Positions 1-24,391 of a stretch of DNA of 27,022 bases are shown piece by piece. Under the pieces are notes generated by a model. It made no database searches, was not told where the DNA came from, and saw only the letters and a program-made list of their open reading frames with translations. The position numbers and the translations under genes are program-made. Origin of the DNA: a virus; the IMG/VR virus record IMGVR_UViG_3300005617_000632, positions 1 to 27,022 of that record. One strand, 5' to 3'. Position 1 is the first letter of the stretch; every line of letters starts with the position of its first letter.

Positions 1-1123
1 GTTACATGAGAGGACGTGCCTCTTTCAACCGCGCAACCGTGACTCTTTCCAGGTTATTAACCCGTTCGCCATGCCCAGACGCTAACTCCCATCGGCTGTC
101 ACAGCTATTCCATAGAACGCCCAAGCGCCTACGCATAGACTGAAGGTGGGAGAAGGTGGCAACCTTGGCATTCACCGCTTTCGCTGGTTCAGGACATTGC
201 CTTGCCGGAGATGACCTTAGTCATCCAGCCAAGACTGTCGGTTGCTTCACGGTCAAGCTAGACGCGCCTTAGTCACTTCGCGCGGCCCGGTTGTCAGTGC
301 TTACAGCCAAGACTTCCGGGTCGATGGTCTAGTGATTGCCAACCTACGGCAACCAGGTCGATCATCGTTCGTCACCGGAGGTAGTCCATTACGACCACCT
401 CCGCAACCAACGGGTGTATCCTGAACCTGTCGCGCTACTCGCGTCCCAAGGTTCAGCATATCCCCTGTCAGGTCAAAGTCAGTGGGTGAGAAACCCGATG
501 GCCACGTGAGCTATTGCCCAGTGCTGGCATACTGACAGGGAGAACAGCCGTCGTAAGGACAGCCGTTCAAACATGGCCAATGTCGTGTAATGGTGTCATG
601 TAATGAGACACATGGGATAACATGAGCTTTAACGTTAACGTGATGCTGATGGGATGCAGTCTGGCAACGGTTCACTTGCGTTGTAAGTCGTTGATAATCA
701 ACTGCATTTGCATGTTACTGTCACCCTGGACGGGCGGGGAGATCGGGGGGTGCCGGCAGGTGTTCGCCCGACGATACGTGGGTCTGTGCGCGACTCATAG
801 ACTTACGCATCGATTCCAGACTGTCGACGCATGATCGCGGGCTGTCAACAAAAGTCTGGAAGCAGAGGGCTTGGTTTCGCCGGATTTGGTGGCTCGCTCT
901 GGGTAAAAATCTCCCATCGCGGGGCTTTCGACTTCTTCCACAGATCTGCTGTACAGGCGCTGGTTTGCCTTTACCCACCTGCTGAACCGTCAGAACTGGC
1001 AACGTATTACGGTCCAAAGATCTGCGTAATCCCAACTCATGCTGGGAGGTATTAAGCGGCGAGGACTGGTTAAGCCATTCCGCTCCAGAGACAGGACGAA
1101 GGCGCTGCCGGGAATTTGAGAAC
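1..1123 (-). ncRNA. Candidate large structured non-coding RNA (about 1 kb, phage-type)
   Basis: No open frame here resembles a protein, yet the stretch is packed with long local inverted repeats. Seen directly: 153-157/162-166, 210-215/220-225, 283-290/316-323, 376-382/397-403, 421-428/449-456, 463-471/532-540 (9 bp), a hairpin at 542-568, 814-822/853-861 (9 bp), 1006-1011/1025-1030, and 1030-1034/1043-1047. Strand was judged from wobble pairs. Hairpins 376-403 and 542-568 become uninterrupted 11-bp stems with G-U pairs only when read on the minus strand; 283-323 mildly favours plus. On the minus strand the RNA directly follows the replication operon. Known large phage RNAs of similar size are GOLLD and ROOL; I do not recognise either consensus here, so the family is open. 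The left end may lie outside the window. Confidence 0.6.
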
Positions 1124-2041: not shown

Positions 2042-2311
2042 TTACGCGAAGTTCAATCCGTCGACATCATCCCCGGCATGTTTCTGCGTCCTGGTGGTCC
2101 CCGAGGTGGCGCCGCCTGGGTCCGGGGCACTCGTGGTCGCATGCCAACCTCCGCAATGATCGCAGGCGTAAACGCGTTTGACGAAGCATGATGGCCCGCG
2201 TTTCTGGAGTGATTGCAAGCATTCGTCTTTGGAATCGAAGTACGGTAGCCAGGCGACTGGGCAGATGAAGACGGCTGGCCAGACGGGGTTTGGGGTCAGG
2301 AAGAGGGACAT
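2042..2311 (-). CDS. Small zinc-binding-like protein (89 aa)
   Basis: The central part contains YACDHCGGWHATTSA (residues about 50-64), a Cys-x2-Cys plus His arrangement resembling a one-sided zinc site found in many small phage proteins of unknown function. The N-terminal half is aromatic and hydrophobic (PVWPAVFICPVAWLPYF); the C-terminal tail is polar. The ATG at 2311 overlaps the 3' end of the methyltransferase gene by 16 bases, which supports this start over a TTG 99 bases upstream. Cotranscription with the methyltransferase is likely, but a functional link is inference only. Confidence 0.65.
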   Translation of the reverse strand: MSLFLTPNPVWPAVFICPVAWLPYFDSKDECLQSLQKRGPSCFVKRVYACDHCGGWHATTSAPDPGGATSGTTRTQKHAGDDVDGLNFA

Positions 2312-3657
2312 TTGCTCAGTGATTCGACAAGTTCGATGCGTCGGCCGATCCAGCGGATCACGGGAACGGCCATTGAATTTCCAAGCGCACGGTATCTGGG
2401 TCCGTCGCAAGCAGGTTTTCCCCGGTAGGGAATGAGCGTGTAGTCGTCAGCGAAACCGAACAGCCTTTCCACTTCTCTCGGGGTCAATCGCCTGACCGCC
2501 ATGCCGTGCGCGATTTGTCGGCTGTGCGTTCGGCCACCTGAACCGGGATTCGTGACGGCATAGGCCAAGTCCTCTTGCGACTCAAAGTTTCGGCCGTCGG
2601 CGCGAGTCCGTTCAGTGAAGGCCAAGGCCATCTGCCCGCCTGCGTTCGCGTGCGAACCGGAGTGGTTCATGGAACGAAGCGTTGGCGACAGATTCTCCCG
2701 CGCATCGCGCCAGTTATCCTTGCAGGAAAAGGCGATCAGGTTCTGCGCCTCATCACCGGCTGGCCCGCCGCATCCTTTCGACCATTTGGCGCTGGCAGCG
2801 CCAACGACGAGCGGAACGCCTCTGCCGGTTCCGTCCTCGCTGGCGTCGTGGCCTTCGGCGGTCAGACTGTGGGCAATGAGCAAACCTTCGCGGGATTCGT
2901 GATCTCCGTATGGGTTGCCGGTGCATGGAGGTGTCACCGTCAAACACTCAGGTTGGATTCCGGCACCTCGTTGTTTGCCGTTCGCCGCGCTCAAAGTTCC
3001 GGCAATCAGCGCCCCGTCGCATTCGGCGTCTGTGCCGAGTCTGCCACCGCCTTGAGTGCGCGCGCTAATGCTTGGGGCAGTTCCTTTCCCCGCTTCTCGG
3101 CGCGGCGGAGGATTCCAGCGCAGGCGCGGGGCGTCATAAAGAACCGCTGCGGCACGCTGCCAGCGTCCTCCAGAACATCCGACAACGAACACACGCTCGC
3201 GTCGTTGGGCCAAACCGGAGTATTGAGCGTCCAGAACCCGGTAGGCGAACCCATACCCCCGTTTTGCCAACCCTCCGAGGAAGGCGCCAAAAGCCCGTCC
3301 TCCATCAATGGACAGAACGCCGGGGACATTTTCCCAAACAACCCAGGCTGGAGCGTAGCGGCCAACCACGTCCAGAAATCGCATGGTAAGCCCGCCACGA
3401 CTGCCTGCCATTCCAGCTCGGAGTCCGGCGACGGAGAAGTCCTGACATGGGGTTCCTCCAACGAGAACGTCGATTGATTGCTGCGGCCATCGTTCATAAT
3501 CGTTCAGGTCTCCGTAGTTCGGGACATTCGGGTAGTAATGATTCAAGAGCGCGCAGGGGAACTTGTCGATCTCGGAGACGAAGGCGCAGCGCCAGCCAAT
3601 AGGTTCCCACGCGACGGTGGCCGCTTCGATCCCGCTGCATACGCTCCCGAAGGTCAT
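2296..3657 (-). CDS. DNA (cytosine-5) methyltransferase
   Basis: This enzyme transfers a methyl group from AdoMet to cytosine C5 in DNA. The conserved motifs are in order: motif I FGSVCSGIEAA (residues 3-13, AdoMet binding), motif IV GGTPCQDFSVAG with catalytic Cys71, motif VI WENVPG (108-113), motif VIII QRRERVFVVG (151-160), motif IX RRLTPREVERLFGF, and motif X RYRALGNSMAVPV (from residue 421). Between motifs VIII and IX there is a long, Gly-rich region of roughly 220 residues holding the target recognition domain. At 453 aa the length is normal. The ATG at 3657 has a GGGGGTG stretch just upstream and overlaps the stop of the preceding gene (ATGA). No cognate restriction enzyme is seen, so it is probably a solitary phage enzyme that protects against host restriction. 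Its target sequence cannot be read from the protein. Confidence 0.95.
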   Translation of the reverse strand: MTFGSVCSGIEAATVAWEPIGWRCAFVSEIDKFPCALLNHYYPNVPNYGDLNDYERWPQQSIDVLVGGTPCQDFSVAGLRAGMAGSRGGLTMRFLDVVGRYAPAWVVWENVPGVLSIDGGRAFGAFLGGLAKRGYGFAYRVLDAQYSGLAQRRERVFVVGCSGGRWQRAAAVLYDAPRLRWNPPPRREAGKGTAPSISARTQGGGRLGTDAECDGALIAGTLSAANGKQRGAGIQPECLTVTPPCTGNPYGDHESREGLLIAHSLTAEGHDASEDGTGRGVPLVVGAASAKWSKGCGGPAGDEAQNLIAFSCKDNWRDARENLSPTLRSMNHSGSHANAGGQMALAFTERTRADGRNFESQEDLAYAVTNPGSGGRTHSRQIAHGMAVRRLTPREVERLFGFADDYTLIPYRGKPACDGPRYRALGNSMAVPVIRWIGRRIELVESLSKCPSS

Positions 3658-3941
3658 GTCTTCACCCCCGCATATACCGCCTCAACGCTGTCGTTTCTGC
3701 CGCCGATACCCTTGCGTATGCGCTGGAGTTCGCCGTTGCGGAGGCATCTTTGGCACAGGGCGCGGGCTTGGTTCAAGGACATCAGACCGTCGTCGCCGTC
3801 ATCGTGGGCGACAAGTTTCATGAGGTCCCGGGCGGTGAACGAGTCCTGGGACTTTGCCAGGCGCCGGAGCAATGTGATGCGCCAGCCGCGGCGACGGGCG
3901 GTTTTGTGGCCGGCAGGGGCGGTTGGGTGATCGAGGTTCAT
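3654..3941 (-). CDS. Small winged-helix-like protein (95 aa)
   Basis: No named family is recognised. Residues about 20-85 have the pattern of a small winged helix: ITLLRRLAKSQDSFTARDLM, then LNQARALCQRCLRNGELQRI, followed by a basic turn. This is the alternation seen in transcriptional regulators and phage DNA-binding proteins. The ATG at 3941 overlaps the stop of the 57-aa gene, and its own stop overlaps the methyltransferase start, both as ATGA. A role in DNA binding or in regulating the methyltransferase is inference from fold-like pattern and position. Confidence 0.65.
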   Translation of the reverse strand: MNLDHPTAPAGHKTARRRGWRITLLRRLAKSQDSFTARDLMKLVAHDDGDDGLMSLNQARALCQRCLRNGELQRIRKGIGGRNDSVEAVYAGVKT

Positions 3942-4111
3942 TGGTTATTTGGTACTTCGAGATTGCGCGGGTACCGTTGCAGTTCGCCATTGTCTGGTTG
4001 ATCGAAGACCTCGAGCCATTCGCCGAATAGCGGGCTCAAGTATTGCCAGCGGCCGTCTTCGTGCAGCCAGTAAACGGTCCCGTCGATGCGCTGGTAGATG
4101 CCGGGTTTCAC
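3938..4111 (-). CDS. Small protein with GTG start (57 aa)
   Basis: The frame begins with GTG at 4111, overlapping the stop of the upstream gene as GTGA, and ends overlapping the ATG of the downstream gene as ATGA. It reads VKPGIYQRIDGTVYWLHEDG and continues with RWQYLSPLFGEWLEVF, a compact aromatic-rich protein with alternating beta-strand-like segments. No family is recognised. The perfect fit between two neighbours and the protein-like composition are the evidence that it is real. Confidence 0.65.
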   Translation of the reverse strand: MKPGIYQRIDGTVYWLHEDGRWQYLSPLFGEWLEVFDQPDNGELQRYPRNLEVPNNQ

Positions 4112-4422
4112 GCCTTGCCCTCCTTTCCTTCGAGCGCGGCGTCGATCTGCGCAAGAACGCTCTCCCGCACATCGGCTTGGCCGTCATCGCCAGGGACGGC
4201 GACGAATGGTAGTTGTCTGCCCAGCAAGGTCGCGAACCGAACCGCATGAGCCAGATCCGCGAACTTCGGGATGTCCTTCTCTGACAAGTTCTCCTCCAGA
4301 AGCTTGGACAACGCCAGCCACGCGAATGCCGCTTGGTTGTTCGTCAGCCGGTTCCCGCGCCGGCCAATGAGCCGCACAAGCTCGCGCCGCGGTAGATGGA
4401 CGCCTTTGTAGGATCGGTTCAT
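4108..4422 (-). CDS. Hypothetical helical protein (104 aa)
   Basis: The frame is predicted to be mainly alpha-helical, for example ELVRLIGRRGNRLTNNQAAF, AWLALSKLLEENLSEKDIPK and VRESVLAQIDAALEGKEGK. No catalytic motif, signal peptide or membrane segment is visible. The ATG at 4422 is preferred over an upstream start because it overlaps the stop of the HNH gene as ATGA, the junction type used throughout this operon. It ends in GTGA, overlapping the 57-aa gene. Function unknown; position suggests an early phage protein. Confidence 0.65.
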   Translation of the reverse strand: MNRSYKGVHLPRRELVRLIGRRGNRLTNNQAAFAWLALSKLLEENLSEKDIPKFADLAHAVRFATLLGRQLPFVAVPGDDGQADVRESVLAQIDAALEGKEGKA

Positions 4423-4652
4423 GGGGCTGTTCTGTTGGCCAGAGTGATTGCCGAATGACAGTCGGCACAAAGCCCGACGCATTCTACCGAGCAACTGAAT
4501 CCGAACTTGCTGAAGGTATCATAGCTCAGATGATGGACTTGTTCAGACGGAGCGCGGAAGCATCTCTGGCACAGTGGATCTCGCTCCAGAACAATTGCGC
4601 GCACCATGCTCCAGTGATCTGACCGGAGATATTCCTTGTACGCCTCCACCAA
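4419..4652 (-). CDS. HNH endonuclease domain, C-terminal half of a frameshifted gene
   Basis: The 77-aa frame carries an HNH nuclease fold: LCQRCFRAPSEQVHHLSYDT with the first Cys pair and the His-His, then LCADCH with the second pair. HNH enzymes cut DNA using a metal ion and are common in phages. The only starts are TTG (4652) or GTG (4649); the next ATG would cut into the domain. Upstream in the -1 frame lies a zinc-type segment (the 124-aa frame) that in related proteins, as I remember them, is the N-terminus of this same enzyme. Rejoining the frames gives a continuous WWEAYKEYL, a normal sequence before an HNH core. The gene therefore looks broken by one missing base near 4646. Confidence 0.75.
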   Translation of the reverse strand: MVEAYKEYLRSDHWSMVRAIVLERDPLCQRCFRAPSEQVHHLSYDTFSKFGFSCSVECVGLCADCHSAITLANRTAP

Positions 4653-4900
4653 GGCCCTGTCCGGGTCAGATATTCATCGGTTCGCCGCTTGTGCAGCCGC
4701 TCAAATTCGGCCTTCCTTCGGAATTCAAATTCGTCGGCAATCGTCGGATCGAACCAGTCCAGCGTGTCGAGATTCCTGCCGTCCTTGGCAACTTCTCGAA
4801 TGGCGACGCCGCAGATCAAGCACTGAAGCGCAATCACTTCTGTTCCGCCGCGCTTTGCCTTCCGCCGTTCGGCGGTCGTTTCGTGAATGCAATCGCTCAT
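4526..4900 (-). pseudogene. N-terminal zinc segment of the HNH protein, out of frame with the nuclease domain
   Basis: The frame starts at ATG 4900, overlapping the helicase stop as ATGA (an ATG nine bases upstream is possible). Residues about 1-85 look genuine: a His/Cys set (MSDCIHET and LQCLICG) followed by a charged helix (EFEFRRKAEFERLHKRRTDE). After TRTGPWW the sequence becomes a random-looking read of the HNH frame (RRTRNISGQITGAW) and runs 127 bases inside it. One extra G in the GG run near 4646-4647 would fuse the two parts into a protein of about 165 aa. It could be a true mutation, a programmed -1 frameshift, or an assembly error; no classic slippery heptamer is seen. Confidence 0.6.
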
Positions 4901-6843
4901 ATGTTCCATTGATGCTGTTCCGGTTCTTCGGTTTGCTCAACTGCGGGCGGTACATCTGCCCTGCTGATTGGCATTTCACTGGCAAATCTGCATGTCGTTG
5001 GATCGTAATAGACCATGTATTGCTTCTTGCGGATGCGCCGGCCTTTGCGCACGTCAAAAATCACCCGGTTGTGAGCCTCTTCATTCACCAGAACGATGAC
5101 TGAATGGGCTTCGTGAGATATGACCCTGGACTCGCGCAGTCGGCCTTCATCGTTGAGTTGTGATAGAACGATGATCGGAATTCGAACGTCCTTCGCCAAA
5201 GCGCGGATGTCGCGCGCGATCTCGGCGACCTGTTGCTCCCGCGGCGTTCCGCCATTCTTCGGCAGAACAATCTGGGCGTAATCCACTATGGCCAGGTCAA
5301 TGCGGCCGTCGCGCTTGAGCTGGAGCACCCGCTGGCGCATCTGCGCCACGTTCATCACCGATTCGTCGTAAGTCCAGAACGGGGCACTGCGTAGCGCGTG
5401 CGCCTCCACAATGATGCGCTGCATCTCTTCCAGGCTGAATTCGCCGGTGTTGAAATGGCTGCGCTGCACCCTGGCGCGCATGGCAAACAGCAGATCCGCG
5501 ATCTCGTCATTGTCCATTTCCAACGTGAACAGGCAGACGTGCTTCTCGGCTTTGAGCGCGGCATTGGCGATGCTGATGGCGATCGAGCTTTTGCCAGCCC
5601 CAGTCTCCGCGGCGATTACCGTCATCTGGCCGGCATGGAGCCCGCCGGTGTCCCTGTCGAAGTCAGCAATCCCGGTCGGCACGCCCAACTCGTTCTTGTG
5701 CTCAGTAAGATACTCGTAGCGAATAAGAGCCTCGTTGACGATCCGGCGGAAAGGCTTCTCTTCCAGGCGAGGTAGTTCCAGTGACTCTTCGAAATACGCC
5801 AAATCTTGAGAGGAAAGCTTTCCTTTGCCAGGATTCAGCCACAAAAGCTGTTGCAGGCCGAGATCCACAGCGCCGTAAGTTCGCTGCGCCGACGGCATCC
5901 GGGACAGGCGTGACGGATTTTTGTTCTTCGGGTCAATGCCGAACGGCGCCAGGGCATTAAGCAGCCTGCGAACGGTTTCCGAGTATTCCTTCTGGTTCGC
6001 GGCGTCTAATCGCACCCAGGCATGGGCGGATTTGCCTCCAGACAGGATCACGGCAGCAATCGGTAGCTGTTTCCAGCCAGCAAACAGCGCAAGCTGGATC
6101 TCCAACGGGATTGAATCGCTCTCCAACAGAACGAACCGGTGCGCCACGACGTCCGAGTCGGTTATCGCGCCGTCCTTGCCGCTCCCGGCCGGCTGACATG
6201 GGTTGGGCCGTAACCAGACCCCGGCCAATGACCTTGGAATGCCGTGCTCTTGCACATGGCGCACCCATTGATCACGACTTTTGGTCTCGCCCGGGCCACA
6301 CGGACTGGTTTTTTTGTCCTGCGTCATGAATGCCCACACCGCATTGATGTTGTCCGTGCCGTCATAGAGCATTTCCAGGAACGTAATCAGCGCTTCCGCA
6401 GGGCTCTGCGGGATCGCCAGTTGACTGATCCCAATAAACTCGTCCTGAGCCATGATTGCCCCTGATAACCACCAGCTTGCGTGCTCCGCGGGCGTTCGTT
6501 TCGGCGGCGCTGGCTTGGCGGGGACTGGATTTGGCTGAGAATACGAGCCGTTTGCGCCGTTCCGAGCCTCAGAACCACGCCCATTTCCGAGCAGATGCCC
6601 GCGCGCCTTGTCGTGAGCCGCCTTCTGCGCGTCCTGAACCTTGTGCTCCAGATCCCGGTCGCTCCACGGCGGCTGGCAGCGTTGGTTGTAGCGCCGGAGC
6701 CAGAACAATGCGGCTGAGGCTGATAGATCGAAGCCGTTGACCAGGCTGCACGCCACCGAATACGTCCGGTTGTGCCCCGCCTGCCCGCTTATGGCCGGGT
6801 CGCAGGCGTCAACGTAGGCGGCTATGCGATCGTCAAGGGTCAC
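4897..6843 (-). CDS. Replicative primase-helicase (AEP-like primase plus DnaB-like helicase)
   Basis: This is a two-part replication protein of 648 aa. Residues 1-75 form a small helical domain resembling primase C-terminal-type modules (GQAGHNRTYSVACSLVNGF, then CQPPWSDRDLEHKVQDA). Residues 230-320 resemble an archaeo-eukaryotic primase core: acidic pair ESDS (241-244), SGGKSAHAWV (268-277) and NKNPSRLSRMP (308-317). Residues 380-600 are a RecA/DnaB-type helicase: Walker A AAETGAGKSS (411-420), Walker B LAIVDYAQ (517-524), SQLN (561-564) and a basic RKGRR (599-603). It should unwind and prime phage DNA at the fork. It starts at GTG 6843, four bases after the initiator stop, so the two genes are surely cotranscribed. 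The acidic pair is less complete than in classical AEPs, so primase activity is less certain than helicase activity. Confidence 0.85.
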   Translation of the reverse strand: MTLDDRIAAYVDACDPAISGQAGHNRTYSVACSLVNGFDLSASAALFWLRRYNQRCQPPWSDRDLEHKVQDAQKAAHDKARGHLLGNGRGSEARNGANGSYSQPNPVPAKPAPPKRTPAEHASWWLSGAIMAQDEFIGISQLAIPQSPAEALITFLEMLYDGTDNINAVWAFMTQDKKTSPCGPGETKSRDQWVRHVQEHGIPRSLAGVWLRPNPCQPAGSGKDGAITDSDVVAHRFVLLESDSIPLEIQLALFAGWKQLPIAAVILSGGKSAHAWVRLDAANQKEYSETVRRLLNALAPFGIDPKNKNPSRLSRMPSAQRTYGAVDLGLQQLLWLNPGKGKLSSQDLAYFEESLELPRLEEKPFRRIVNEALIRYEYLTEHKNELGVPTGIADFDRDTGGLHAGQMTVIAAETGAGKSSIAISIANAALKAEKHVCLFTLEMDNDEIADLLFAMRARVQRSHFNTGEFSLEEMQRIIVEAHALRSAPFWTYDESVMNVAQMRQRVLQLKRDGRIDLAIVDYAQIVLPKNGGTPREQQVAEIARDIRALAKDVRIPIIVLSQLNDEGRLRESRVISHEAHSVIVLVNEEAHNRVIFDVRKGRRIRKKQYMVYYDPTTCRFASEMPISRADVPPAVEQTEEPEQHQWNI

Positions 6844-6847
6844 AGGC

Positions 6848-7525
6848 TCAGAATATTCTGGCGCTCTTGGGCTGTGGTTCAGGCTCTTTGAAAAACAGCC
6901 GCGCCCGATCCAAGGTCTTTGACCAGTTCAGCAGCAAGGACTGAATCGACGTCGGAAAGAACTTCCGCTTGGCGGGGTCCAGCTTTGAGCGCCAGTCCAA
7001 GATCATCTGCAACTCCAGATCGATCTTCGGACGCCCGAGGACCAGTTCGTGCAAAGTGGATTCTTCGAGATAGGACCATGGGGATTCGGCGGGGCGATAG
7101 AAGGCGTCGACCAAAGCTTGCCGAATTGTCTCAAAAGCAACTGCCGGTGTGTTAGGTTCATTGACTGGTTCAGTACTGACTGGTTTCCCTGCACGGCGTG
7201 CCCCACCCCCTGGGGCCTCGTGTGCCCCACCGTGGGGCATGTCGTGCCCCACCTGGGGCATGAGCAGTAGATAAAGGTTTGAATCTGCGTCGCCGTGGGT
7301 TGGGTTGATTCGAGGCGTAATTTTGATGAATCCGGCTTCCGAAAGATCGTGCAACCTCTTGCGGACTGTGCGTTCGGCCAACAGTGTTTCACGGGCCAAT
7401 CTCGGAACTGACGGCCAGCACGTATTCTCGCTGCCGGAATAATTGGCCAGCAGAAGGAGGATGAGTTTCGATTCGGCATCAGGAGGCGTTTGGTCTATCG
7501 CCCACGTCATGGCTTGGAAGGACAT
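6848..7525 (-). CDS. Helix-turn-helix replication initiator-like protein
   Basis: Residues 1-90 form an HTH_36-type winged helix: MTWAIDQTPPDAESKLILLL, then CWPSVPRLARETLLAERTVR and KRLHDLSEAGFIKITPRI. This is the fold used by many phage and plasmid initiators. A low-complexity linker (residues about 90-120, GHDMPHGGAHEAPGGGARRA) joins it to a C-terminal helical domain (residues 130-225). The linker DNA holds three iteron-like repeats, as in lambda-type O genes where the initiator binds its own gene. The helicase gene follows four bases after the stop. The ATG at 7525 is chosen; an internal ATG at 7510 also fits. Function as origin-binding initiator/helicase loader is inferred from fold, linker DNA and position. 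Confidence 0.75.
   Translation of the reverse strand: MSFQAMTWAIDQTPPDAESKLILLLLANYSGSENTCWPSVPRLARETLLAERTVRKRLHDLSEAGFIKITPRINPTHGDADSNLYLLLMPQVGHDMPHGGAHEAPGGGARRAGKPVSTEPVNEPNTPAVAFETIRQALVDAFYRPAESPWSYLEESTLHELVLGRPKIDLELQMILDWRSKLDPAKRKFFPTSIQSLLLNWSKTLDRARLFFKEPEPQPKSARIF
7170..7260. repeat. Iteron-like repeats inside the initiator gene (candidate replication origin)
   Basis: GTGCCCCAC occurs at 7198-7206, 7222-7230 and 7244-7252, at spacings of 24 and 22 bp (about two helical turns). Each copy is followed by its own inverted partner TGGGGC, so every unit is a small palindrome. A 10-bp palindrome TCAGTACTGA lies beside them at 7170-7179. Iterons within the initiator gene are known from lambdoid phages, where they form ori. 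The repeats encode only a Gly/His-rich linker, so a DNA role is plausible. Confidence 0.5.
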
Positions 7526-7758
7526 AATGGAGTGAAAGAATTGCGCTTGGCCTTGGTCGCCCTTCGAGCGAGAAAGGAGGGAGTGCTACCAGGGCCGGCA
7601 CCGAAGCACCGGACCAAGCGCAAAGCAAATATCTCAGAGGTTATCCGCAAGTGCAACTCGGAACGAACGACCAAGTCCATTCAGAGCATCACAAAGCTAC
7701 CAAACCCCGCGTCCGTCTGGCAATGGAAAAGTTACGAAGAGGTGAAGATTTTTCAGCG
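7526..7758 (-). promoter_or_regulatory. Intergenic region upstream of the replication operon; no secure gene
   Basis: These 233 bases separate two leftward operons, so they should hold the promoter of the replication operon. A weak candidate on the minus strand is TTGCAC (7656-7651), a 16-base spacer and GATATT (7634-7629). On the plus strand a basic frame is open up to a TAG at 7760-7762 (starts GTG 7532 or 7583, with AGGAGG at 7575-7580). It has protein-like composition (KHRTKRKANISEVIRKCNSE), but no family and poor start spacing, so it is not called as a gene. Confidence 0.3.
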
Positions 7759-8529
7759 TTAGATGAATACCGGGCAGGGACGATAGCCGTTGGACATCTG
7801 TCGCCACTCAACGAGGATCGGGGTCCAGTTCGGTGACTTCATGCCCAGGCGATCCGCGAGCGTTTGGTAGTCCGCCGGCTCGCTCTGGCACTTCCGGAGA
7901 TACAACGGCGCGCGCCCCGGATATGGTGCGGTGAGCTCCGGCATGAAAGCGAACTTATGGTTGAACCGCGTGTCGATCAGGTCGGCCATCCAGCCCTCAA
8001 TAAGCGACGCGTGACGCATCGAGGTGTTCCGGACACGACCTTCATAGCTCTCTTTGAGTTCTGCTGGAGAGATTGTACCGGTACGAATCGCCAGGATGTC
8101 GCTCTGTACGGATAAACTGCTGAAGAACCGGCTTTCCGCCCGCTTGATCGTTCCTGGCGGGATTCGCCCAGGAAGCGTCAGGGAGATGTTTGCTTCAGAG
8201 AAGTAGCGCTCGATGATCTCCCGGCAGACCGGTTCGCAGAGAACGAGGCGCTGGGAGATCTTTAGGGCCACATCCGCTTTCACAGACTCGGCGAAGGCCA
8301 AGGCGTTGACGCAGCAGTTCGCGTCGCCTGCGAAATGACCCCTCGGGCCTCCGGCGACGTGGTGCACGTCCATCTCGGCCGCCAGGTCGCGGATCTGGCC
8401 GGAGTGCTCGCTGATGTCGTCTGAGACCAAAATTGGCAGGCCGTTGCCGAACACGTGGCGAAGCGCGCGGATGTTCAGCTCCACGAATTGGGGAAGAGCA
8501 TACGACCCGACACAGGCCGCGAAGGTCAT
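7759..8529 (-). CDS. Glycosyltransferase-like protein (256 aa)
   Basis: The N-terminal half resembles a GT-A nucleotide-sugar transferase: MTFAACVGSYALPQFVELNI, then a beta strand ending in an acidic pair (LPILVSDDISEH, near residue 40), a Gly/His stretch (HHVAGGPRGHFAGDANCCVN) and an alpha-helix with DVALKISQRLVL. This gives the strand-DD arrangement used to bind metal and sugar nucleotide, but the match is by pattern only. The C-terminal half contains a stretch of aromatic and Pro residues (AYPGR-type) and no membrane helix. The ATG at 8529 lies one base after the stop of the 54-aa gene. Together with the RmlD-like gene in this operon and RmlA at 22127, it points to glycan modification. Substrate unknown. 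Confidence 0.55.
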   Translation of the reverse strand: MTFAACVGSYALPQFVELNIRALRHVFGNGLPILVSDDISEHSGQIRDLAAEMDVHHVAGGPRGHFAGDANCCVNALAFAESVKADVALKISQRLVLCEPVCREIIERYFSEANISLTLPGRIPPGTIKRAESRFFSSLSVQSDILAIRTGTISPAELKESYEGRVRNTSMRHASLIEGWMADLIDTRFNHKFAFMPELTAPYPGRAPLYLRKCQSEPADYQTLADRLGMKSPNWTPILVEWRQMSNGYRPCPVFI

Positions 8530-22126: not shown

Positions 22127-22981
22127 ATGAAAGGACTGCTGCTCGCTGGGGGGTCAGGCAGCCGATTATGGCCGGCAACCGCCGCTGTCTCCAAGCAGTT
22201 GTTGAATTGCGCGGGTCGTCCACTCTGCTACTTCCCCTTGGTCGCGCTCATGGAGGCAGGCATCCGCGAGGTCTGCATCATCACCATGCCGCACGAGGCC
22301 GAGCGATTCATTCGACTCTTCGGCGACGGTAAACGGCTGGGCATGCGCATCGAATATCGGAAGCAACCGGAGCCCCGAGGCATAGCTGAGGCTTTCATTA
22401 TCGGGAAGAGTTTCATTGGGCGCGATGCCGTGACGCTGATTCTTGGCGACAACATCTTCATCGGCGATTCGATCCAGATCTACAGCCGCCAGATTTCCGG
22501 ACGGCCGTGCGGAGCTGACATCCTGGCTGTGTGCGTCGCCAATCCAAAACGCTACGGCGTCGTCACATTCGGGCTCAGCGGCCAAGTCGAATCCGTGCGC
22601 GAGAAGCCGAAGTTCTCCAGCAGCAAATGGGCTGTGCCAGGGCTCTACTCATTCGCTCCGTCCGTCGTGGAGATCGCTCAAGGACTGACGCCTTCTGCTC
22701 GCGGTGAGATTGAGATCGTCGACGTCATCTCGGAGTATAACCGGAGAGGCCAGCTTCGGGCGCACAAGCTCCCGCGGTCAATTATCTGGATGGACGCCGG
22801 AACGCCCAGCGACCTGATGGAAGCGACCTGTCTGATTCACGCGCTGGAAAAGAGAACAGGGACCGTCATCGGCTCTCCAGAACTCGCGGCGCTGAACAAC
22901 GAGTGGATCGACAAGGACCAATTCAAGGAACTGCTCCGGCAGATGCCAGAGTGCGAATACAAGGAGAAGCTCAGCTCATAA
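22127..22981 (+). CDS. rmlA: Glucose-1-phosphate thymidylyltransferase (RmlA-like)
   Basis: This 284-aa enzyme joins dTTP (or a related NTP) and glucose-1-phosphate to make dTDP-glucose, the first step to dTDP-rhamnose. Signature elements: LLAGGSGSRLWPAT...SKQLL (residues 5-26, nucleotide binding), YRKQPEPRGIAEAF (substrate loop), LILGDNIF (metal-binding Asp), NPKRYGVVTF, EKPK, PGLYSF, GEIEIVDVI, and WMDAGTPSDLMEA. All of the main catalytic segments are present, and the length is normal. The phage also encodes an RmlD-like enzyme (8706) and a glycosyltransferase-like protein (7759), but no RmlB or RmlC is in the window. The gene is preceded by 235 non-coding bases and converges on the terminase gene with a 6-base overlap at the stops. 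Confidence 0.88.
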   Translation: MKGLLLAGGSGSRLWPATAAVSKQLLNCAGRPLCYFPLVALMEAGIREVCIITMPHEAERFIRLFGDGKRLGMRIEYRKQPEPRGIAEAFIIGKSFIGRDAVTLILGDNIFIGDSIQIYSRQISGRPCGADILAVCVANPKRYGVVTFGLSGQVESVREKPKFSSSKWAVPGLYSFAPSVVEIAQGLTPSARGEIEIVDVISEYNRRGQLRAHKLPRSIIWMDAGTPSDLMEATCLIHALEKRTGTVIGSPELAALNNEWIDKDQFKELLRQMPECEYKEKLSS

Positions 22982-24391
22982 TCGCACGGAGACAAGTTCC
23001 GACGTCGTGCCGACCTTCGGGCCTGCCCAGGATTCCGATAATTCCCAGAATGCGCTGGCCCCTAAAGCATACGTCAATGAGTCGAAGACGTGCTTGTGCT
23101 CGCTCCGTTCAACTGGATCGAGCTTCGTCTTGCCCCTTCGAAGGTTCCCCAACATGGCAATGGTTCGAACGCAGCGCGCCGAAATGAAGATCCGGTTTTG
23201 GAACAGGAGCCGGTGCAGAATGTCGATCCGCTTGAAGATGCTCCCACGACCCTTGGGCGCCGCCATGAGCATGATCCGGCCGGCGCTGGCGACCGAGATG
23301 ACGCTGTGATCGTACCCGCCCAGGCCCGCGCGAAACTGGTCGAAGCTGCTGGTATCCGACCAGTGCTTCCATTCGAGCGGATTCTTGTGGCAGTGCTCAC
23401 GAATGTAGCCCTCCCAGAAATCCATGCGCTCGACGAATGCCTCGGTGAAGTCCGTGATCGGCACCGGCGTGTTGATTGCCACCAATTCATCGAGCACGAG
23501 GTAAATGCTCTGGTTATGCGGGCCGCCGACCTGTTCGATGATGTGCGCGCTGTGGTTCTTTGACCCAGGATCCCAACCGCTCAACAGAATCGAGCATGTA
23601 TCCGTCGGCAGCAGGATCTCGGACTTCTCTTCCTCGAATGCGTCCAGCCTCCCAAGGACGTGCGTGTCGGCCATGTAGACGTCGGCGAAGATGCCGTCTT
23701 CGGTGCGGCGTTTCCAGAGGCCCAGATAATATCGGTCGTAAAGGTTGCGGTCGTGGGCATGACGGGCGGCGATGCTCTGCTTCTCGTCGTCAGAGACGAA
23801 GGGGTTGTCGTCCAACGTGACGTGGATGACGTTGTACTTCGCCTGCTCGGACGGGTAGGGATGATTCTCAGCTAGGCGCTCGGTGTAAAACAGGTTGTAG
23901 ATCCAGCTCTGTTCGCCTTCCTGAGCGGGATTTGTATCCGCAAGCCAGTGGTGGGATTCTGGTGGAAGATGCGGCATACGCAACTGCTCAGAGGTGATCG
24001 TAAAAATAATTCGGTTGAGAAAGTTCGACAGCTCCGAAAAATAAATCATCGAGAAGCGCGTGGAGCGCACGGCTGCCTCCACGTCGAAATCGTAATCAAG
24101 GGAATGAAGTTGGATTCGCGAAGCCCCGCCGTACATGTTGGACACGTCCATATACAAAAGCCTCGTGGCACCATCTACCTTAGGGCCTTTGAGGATCTTG
24201 AAGCCGAAATTTCCTTCGGCCCACTCCCCCAAAACCGTTTCGACCAAATCCGTGAACACGCCCCCTTGTTCGGCGGATTTGCGCGTGCGCGCGAAGATGG
24301 CTATCCGAGCTTGCGGCGTTTCCCACGCGTGGCGAAGGATCTTGTGGCAGCAACCGATTGTTTTCCCCGTGCGTCGCGGTCCGTCCACCAA
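22976..24391 (-). CDS. terL: Terminase large subunit (packaging ATPase/nuclease)
   Basis: This motor protein pumps phage DNA into the procapsid and cuts it. Residues are counted from TTG 24391: Walker A GPRRTGKT (4-11), Walker B RFSMIYFSE with catalytic Glu120, a coupling-type segment (HHWLADTNPAQEGE), then the RNase H-type nuclease domain starting at SGWDPGSKNH (Asp274), SDTSSFDQF (Asp346) and HVFDSLTYALGA (Asp437). Only TTG or GTG begins the listed frame, and both lie right against Walker A. The frame stays open upstream and reads LWQPNLSEKQLEIFNDYHRY, typical terminase sequence, with no ATG, GTG or TTG; the true start may be ATT at 24478. The gene is on the strand opposite to the portal-like gene and converges on rmlA. 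Confidence 0.88.
   Translation of the reverse strand: MVDGPRRTGKTIGCCHKILRHAWETPQARIAIFARTRKSAEQGGVFTDLVETVLGEWAEGNFGFKILKGPKVDGATRLLYMDVSNMYGGASRIQLHSLDYDFDVEAAVRSTRFSMIYFSELSNFLNRIIFTITSEQLRMPHLPPESHHWLADTNPAQEGEQSWIYNLFYTERLAENHPYPSEQAKYNVIHVTLDDNPFVSDDEKQSIAARHAHDRNLYDRYYLGLWKRRTEDGIFADVYMADTHVLGRLDAFEEEKSEILLPTDTCSILLSGWDPGSKNHSAHIIEQVGGPHNQSIYLVLDELVAINTPVPITDFTEAFVERMDFWEGYIREHCHKNPLEWKHWSDTSSFDQFRAGLGGYDHSVISVASAGRIMLMAAPKGRGSIFKRIDILHRLLFQNRIFISARCVRTIAMLGNLRRGKTKLDPVERSEHKHVFDSLTYALGASAFWELSESWAGPKVGTTSELVSVRL

Follow-up and report, generated by a model that had tools for sequence, protein, structure and literature searches.

A large candidate non-coding RNA with a predicted structure on the minus strand at one end of a tailed-phage contig

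Sequence analysis and structure prediction suggest that a tailed phage probably encodes, on the minus strand of positions 1-1112 of this contig, an orphan structured non-coding RNA of roughly 1.1 kb. This RNA would act in its own right and would probably be made from the leftward transcription unit that carries the replication genes. The window analysed here is the entire IMG/VR virus record of 27,022 bases, and position 1 is an end of the contig. A tailed-phage gene, encoding the terminase large subunit, lies at 22976-24391. The replication genes are on the minus strand and encode a replication initiator (6848-7525) and a primase/DnaB-type helicase (4897-6843); a C-5 cytosine methyltransferase gene (2296-3657) is also on the minus strand. 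The recognisable genes from 2296 to 7525 share their strand with the candidate RNA.

The data show that 1-1112 is non-coding, in agreement with the preliminary description, which had seen no plausible protein there. A codon-usage score trained on the larger genes of the contig was calculated in 300-nt windows. It lies between -0.16 and -0.07 in the six windows starting at 1-751 and is negative in all of them, compared with a mean of +0.119 and a 5th percentile of -0.040 for the remainder of the window. For all 300-nt windows with starts at 1-1051 the score stays below zero, and from about 1200 it becomes positive. No protein family was found above chance in six read-through frames, with a best E-value of 0.022 in Pfam (a chance value) and 0.13 in PHROG, and a tblastn search of one read-through frame against phages gave no match.

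The minus strand of 1-1112 is predicted to fold with -419 kcal/mol, compared with -376 kcal/mol (sd 9.0) for dinucleotide shuffles. This corresponds to a z-score of -4.75, and none of 70 shuffles matched the value. The plus strand of the same interval has a z-score of only -2.33 and was matched by a shuffle. Windows of 700 nt within the region give z-scores of -4.55, -3.90 and -3.72 on the minus strand, whereas 40 control folds of the same length elsewhere in the contig have a mean of 0.08 (sd 0.90) and a minimum of -2.04. A sliding scan of 150 nt also identifies this region as the lowest kilobase of the window, with the minus strand lower than the plus strand. The ensemble diversity per nt on the minus strand is 0.145, in comparison with 0.229 for shuffles (sd 0.035; the lowest of 13 was 0.158), and on the plus strand it is 0.288, in comparison with 0.241 for shuffles. 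A well-defined structure is thus predicted for the minus strand but not for the plus strand. Definition on one strand only would be expected of a selected RNA and not of a cluster of DNA palindromes.

The preliminary description had drawn attention to the density of inverted repeats. The number of repeats is itself not unusual: there are four Watson-Crick stems of at least 7 bp, compared with 3.6 expected per equal length from the remainder of the window. What does hold is that the global fold of the minus strand exceeds chance. Minus-strand stems of at least 9 bp that tolerate G-U pairs number 13, in comparison with 7.6 elsewhere in the window. As perfect inverted repeats in the DNA hardly exceed background, the signal consists of G-U-tolerant, long-range pairing of the RNA type. 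The fold-energy test is imperfect, being neither necessary nor sufficient: an interval of phage ICP1 that holds a known abundant non-coding RNA, used as a positive control, scores only z -1.6, and a regression scan of other phage contigs found some kilobases with a local z equally low. The argument is built on three features taken together: a non-coding sequence, a fold that is an outlier in its own contig and definition on one strand.

The anatomy of the minus-strand RNA was predicted from the partition function, with pairing spans of up to 400 nt and with p denoting helix probabilities. The 5' end would be near 1112 and the 3' end near or beyond position 1, and well-supported structure extends from about 1111 to about 9. 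There is a 5' domain (753-1111) closed by CCGGCAG (1111-1105) with CUGCCGG (759-753) and by UUCGUCC (1100-1094) with GGGCGAA (769-763), at p 0.89-1.00, and a hairpin at 861-814 is nested within it. Downstream, a middle region holds the next five elements, the first of which is an 11-bp hairpin (542-568, GAACGGCUGUC/GACGGCUGUUC) with two G-U pairs and the loop CUUAC, at p = 1.00. This is followed by a stem-loop domain (462-541) closed by UCCCUGUCAG (541-532) and CUGACAGGGG (471-462), at p = 0.90 (inverted repeat I18). A further 11-bp hairpin (376-403, CGGAGGUGGUC/GACUACCUCCG; inverted repeat I8) has one G-U pair and the loop GUAAUG, at p = 0.96. The two 11-bp stems had been proposed to be unbroken only when read on the minus strand with G-U pairs, and both turn out to be so; on the plus strand 376-403 has an A-C mismatch and 542-568 has A-C mismatches.

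The remaining elements are a 9-bp hairpin (333-355) with two G-U pairs and the loop UAGGU, at p = 0.93-0.95; a CCCGG/CCGGG hairpin (286-320) with symmetric internal loops, at p = 0.98-1.00; and a 3' domain (29-285). The 3' domain is closed by CCGCGCGA (285-278) with UUGCGCGG (36-29) and by GUGACU (276-271) with AGUCAC (44-39), at p = 0.89. The 3'-most hairpin, AGAGG/CCUCU (9-23), has p = 0.88-0.93 and is not followed by a U-run before the end of the contig. Because this last hairpin ends just before the contig does, the 3' end of the RNA may be missing. The loops of 403-376 (GUAAUG) and 568-542 (CUUAC) could form a kissing contact of 4 bp (GUAA/UUAC), a length that is common by chance.

No sigma-70-like promoter and no terminator-like site were seen on the minus strand. 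The predicted 5' end immediately follows the stop codon of a same-strand ORF of 167 aa (1124-1627), which makes co-transcription likely. This ORF, directly upstream of the candidate, has a weakly positive codon score, and searches for relatives and protein families found none. We propose that the leftward transcription unit with the primase/helicase, replication initiator and methyltransferase genes probably gives rise to the RNA of about 1.1 kb. The transcript would fold into at least two domains closed over long range and several long hairpins containing G-U pairs, and it would most likely act during infection as a scaffold or oligomer like GOLLD and ROOL, not as an mRNA or a DNA site. Its transcription, exact ends and molecular role are inferred.

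Two observations concern the neighbouring genes. The stretch 7536-7687, which lies upstream of the replication initiator gene, shares 82% identity with 3565-3716 of the related contig L002, a higher value than the 78% of the helicase gene, and could represent either a small gene on the plus strand (7490-7762) or an origin. The closest IMG/VR relatives of the methyltransferase, on L010 and L011, sit in other gene contexts. Among cellular sequences, the searches with the helicase yielded a single relative, a match of 68% over 44 residues in a Candidatus Methylacidiphilales MAG, and the host group can therefore only be guessed.

The region matches no recognisable GOLLD, ROOL or other Rfam family. 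There were no matches to Rfam 15 at the gathering threshold in the whole window, and cmscan of 1-2100 found nothing up to E = 10, including OLE, HEARO, introns, rRNA and tmRNA. A single-family search with the GOLLD model (RF02032) was empty, as was one with the ROOL model (RF03087), for which the control genomes gave no match either. Of the earlier proposal of a giant structured RNA of the GOLLD/ROOL class, the giant structured RNA is favoured by the minus-strand fold energy, the one-strand ensemble and the absence of coding, but membership of GOLLD or ROOL is not, as neither model matched.

In kind, the candidate nevertheless appears most like these RNAs. GOLLD forms an RNA-only cage of 14 subunits, and proximity to tRNAs is common but not obligatory. 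Both GOLLD and ROOL are large RNAs of phages that assemble into cages made of RNA alone, and both are often encoded close to tRNAs; GOLLD is phage- or prophage-encoded and non-coding, with many members longer than 800 nt and an ornate secondary structure, and ROOL is a large phage-encoded structured RNA with no known protein partner (PMC12286853). The candidate shares with GOLLD its phage origin, lack of coding, large size and ornate predicted secondary structure, but it has no match to the 416-position RF02032 model. It resembles ROOL as a large structured phage RNA, with a structure that in its case is predicted only, but it has no RF03087 match and is about 1.1 kb in comparison with a 574-position model. 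It differs from both in having no tRNA in its contig, in which ARAGORN found none, although the contig may be a fragment.

The most abundant transcript of ICP1, a phage without tRNAs, is an ORF-less RNA of about 800 nt from an interval of about 1 kb (PMC7567579). This interval lies between gp139 and gp140 and has no Rfam match above the gathering score. An ORF-less interval of about 1 kb, a tailed phage without tRNAs and the lack of an Rfam match above gathering are common to both. However, the ICP1 RNA has no similarity above noise to the candidate's model R1, its fold z is weaker, and it is the only one of the two with demonstrated expression. Additionally, phage K has two lncRNAs that have been likened to GOLLD and ROOL (PMC9241854). 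Judged by analogy, the candidate would be most like the GOLLD, ROOL, ICP1 and phage K RNAs in kind, but its sequence is not related to that of any RNA available for comparison. That it works like GOLLD, ROOL or the ICP1 RNA is plausible on the same basis.

No homologue of the region was found by blastn against phages and plasmids, by read-through peptide patterns in IMG/VR, or by scanning IMG/VR for two loop motifs and filtering the matches by stem complementarity, local blastn and nhmmer. The same was true of the loci around related helicases and methyltransferases: there is no detectable copy in L002, L030 and L003, which carry close relatives of the helicase gene, or in L010 and L011. At the DNA level, the 388 genomes searched from the phylum to which the Methylacidiphilales MAG belongs gave no homologue, and neither did two single-sequence covariance models run on related contigs and on 289 genomes of that phylum. 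The loop-motif and single-sequence-model searches are low-powered, so the missing homologues are to be read as absence of evidence. As a singleton without covariation the RNA is a good candidate and not a proven class.

Several matches were considered and rejected. The match at 14331 of L033 is 22 nt inside an open reading frame. L244 has an R2 match within an ORF of 574 aa and only a weak R1 match, and L245 has a weak match of the same strength as that of L244. L190 and L193 each have a single short match (26-28 nt; E-values per genome of about 3e-4 to 6e-4, with 388 genomes searched), and these were judged to be due to chance.

Other explanations of the region have to be considered. On the minus strand it comes immediately after the 167-aa ORF, and no promoter-like site is seen on that strand, as would fit a structured untranslated or regulatory stretch of the leftward operon (a long 3' UTR, an attenuator array or a processing region) in place of an independent RNA. 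However, a UTR of 1.1 kb would be very long by phage standards, and helices that span 350 and 250 nt tie distant positions together into domains; we consider this explanation unlikely. A decayed gene or foreign filler, structured by chance, would be consistent with the lack of a homologue in any collection searched, and folding tests can mislead. It is nevertheless improbable given the z of -4.75, the outlying position of the region in its own contig, the well-defined ensemble on one strand and the absence of any protein-family remnant in six frames.

It is quite improbable that the signal reflects a DNA-level site, in which proteins of replication, recombination or packaging would bind to palindromes. 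A dispersed, palindrome-like motif has one of its copies at 683-701 and the region is on the same side as the replication genes, but the number of perfect inverted repeats is close to background, and the strands differ in fold energy and in ensemble where a DNA site would be strand-symmetric. Size, phage origin and absence of coding would also suit a very diverged GOLLD or ROOL RNA missed by the Rfam models. The empty cmscan up to E = 10, the empty single-family searches (for ROOL with control genomes that were silent too) and the absence of a tRNA from the contig make this highly improbable. Taken together, the data make an orphan structured RNA read from the minus strand the most probable explanation.

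To our knowledge, the function of the large ornate phage RNAs is not known and few classes have been described. There is some chance, although a rather small one, that the orphan RNA is the first example of a hitherto undescribed class of giant phage RNA unrelated to GOLLD, ROOL and OLE, in which loop-loop contacts, such as that of GUAA (403-376) with UUAC (568-542), would build an RNA-only particle. If the RNA is real, it would be a further example with no sequence relationship to the others, which would point to repeated origins of giant RNAs in phages, and the candidate would give a new object for work on structure and function.

Finally, the motif at 683-701 on the minus strand, TTGATTATCAACGACTTAC, is an exact match where none is expected by chance, and a literature search found no paper that names it. 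Matches of query positions 422-444 to several genomes are due to this dispersed motif and not to the RNA. An exact 20-mer of it is common to 31 IMG/VR stretches, and the motif is present in L199, L206, L208, L210, L222 and L240. Scattered genomes from the same phylum as the Methylacidiphilales MAG have several copies. In L210 and L222 the motif recurs as the palindrome AAGTCnTTGAnnATCAAnGACTT, often adjoining runs of GGGGCCCC.
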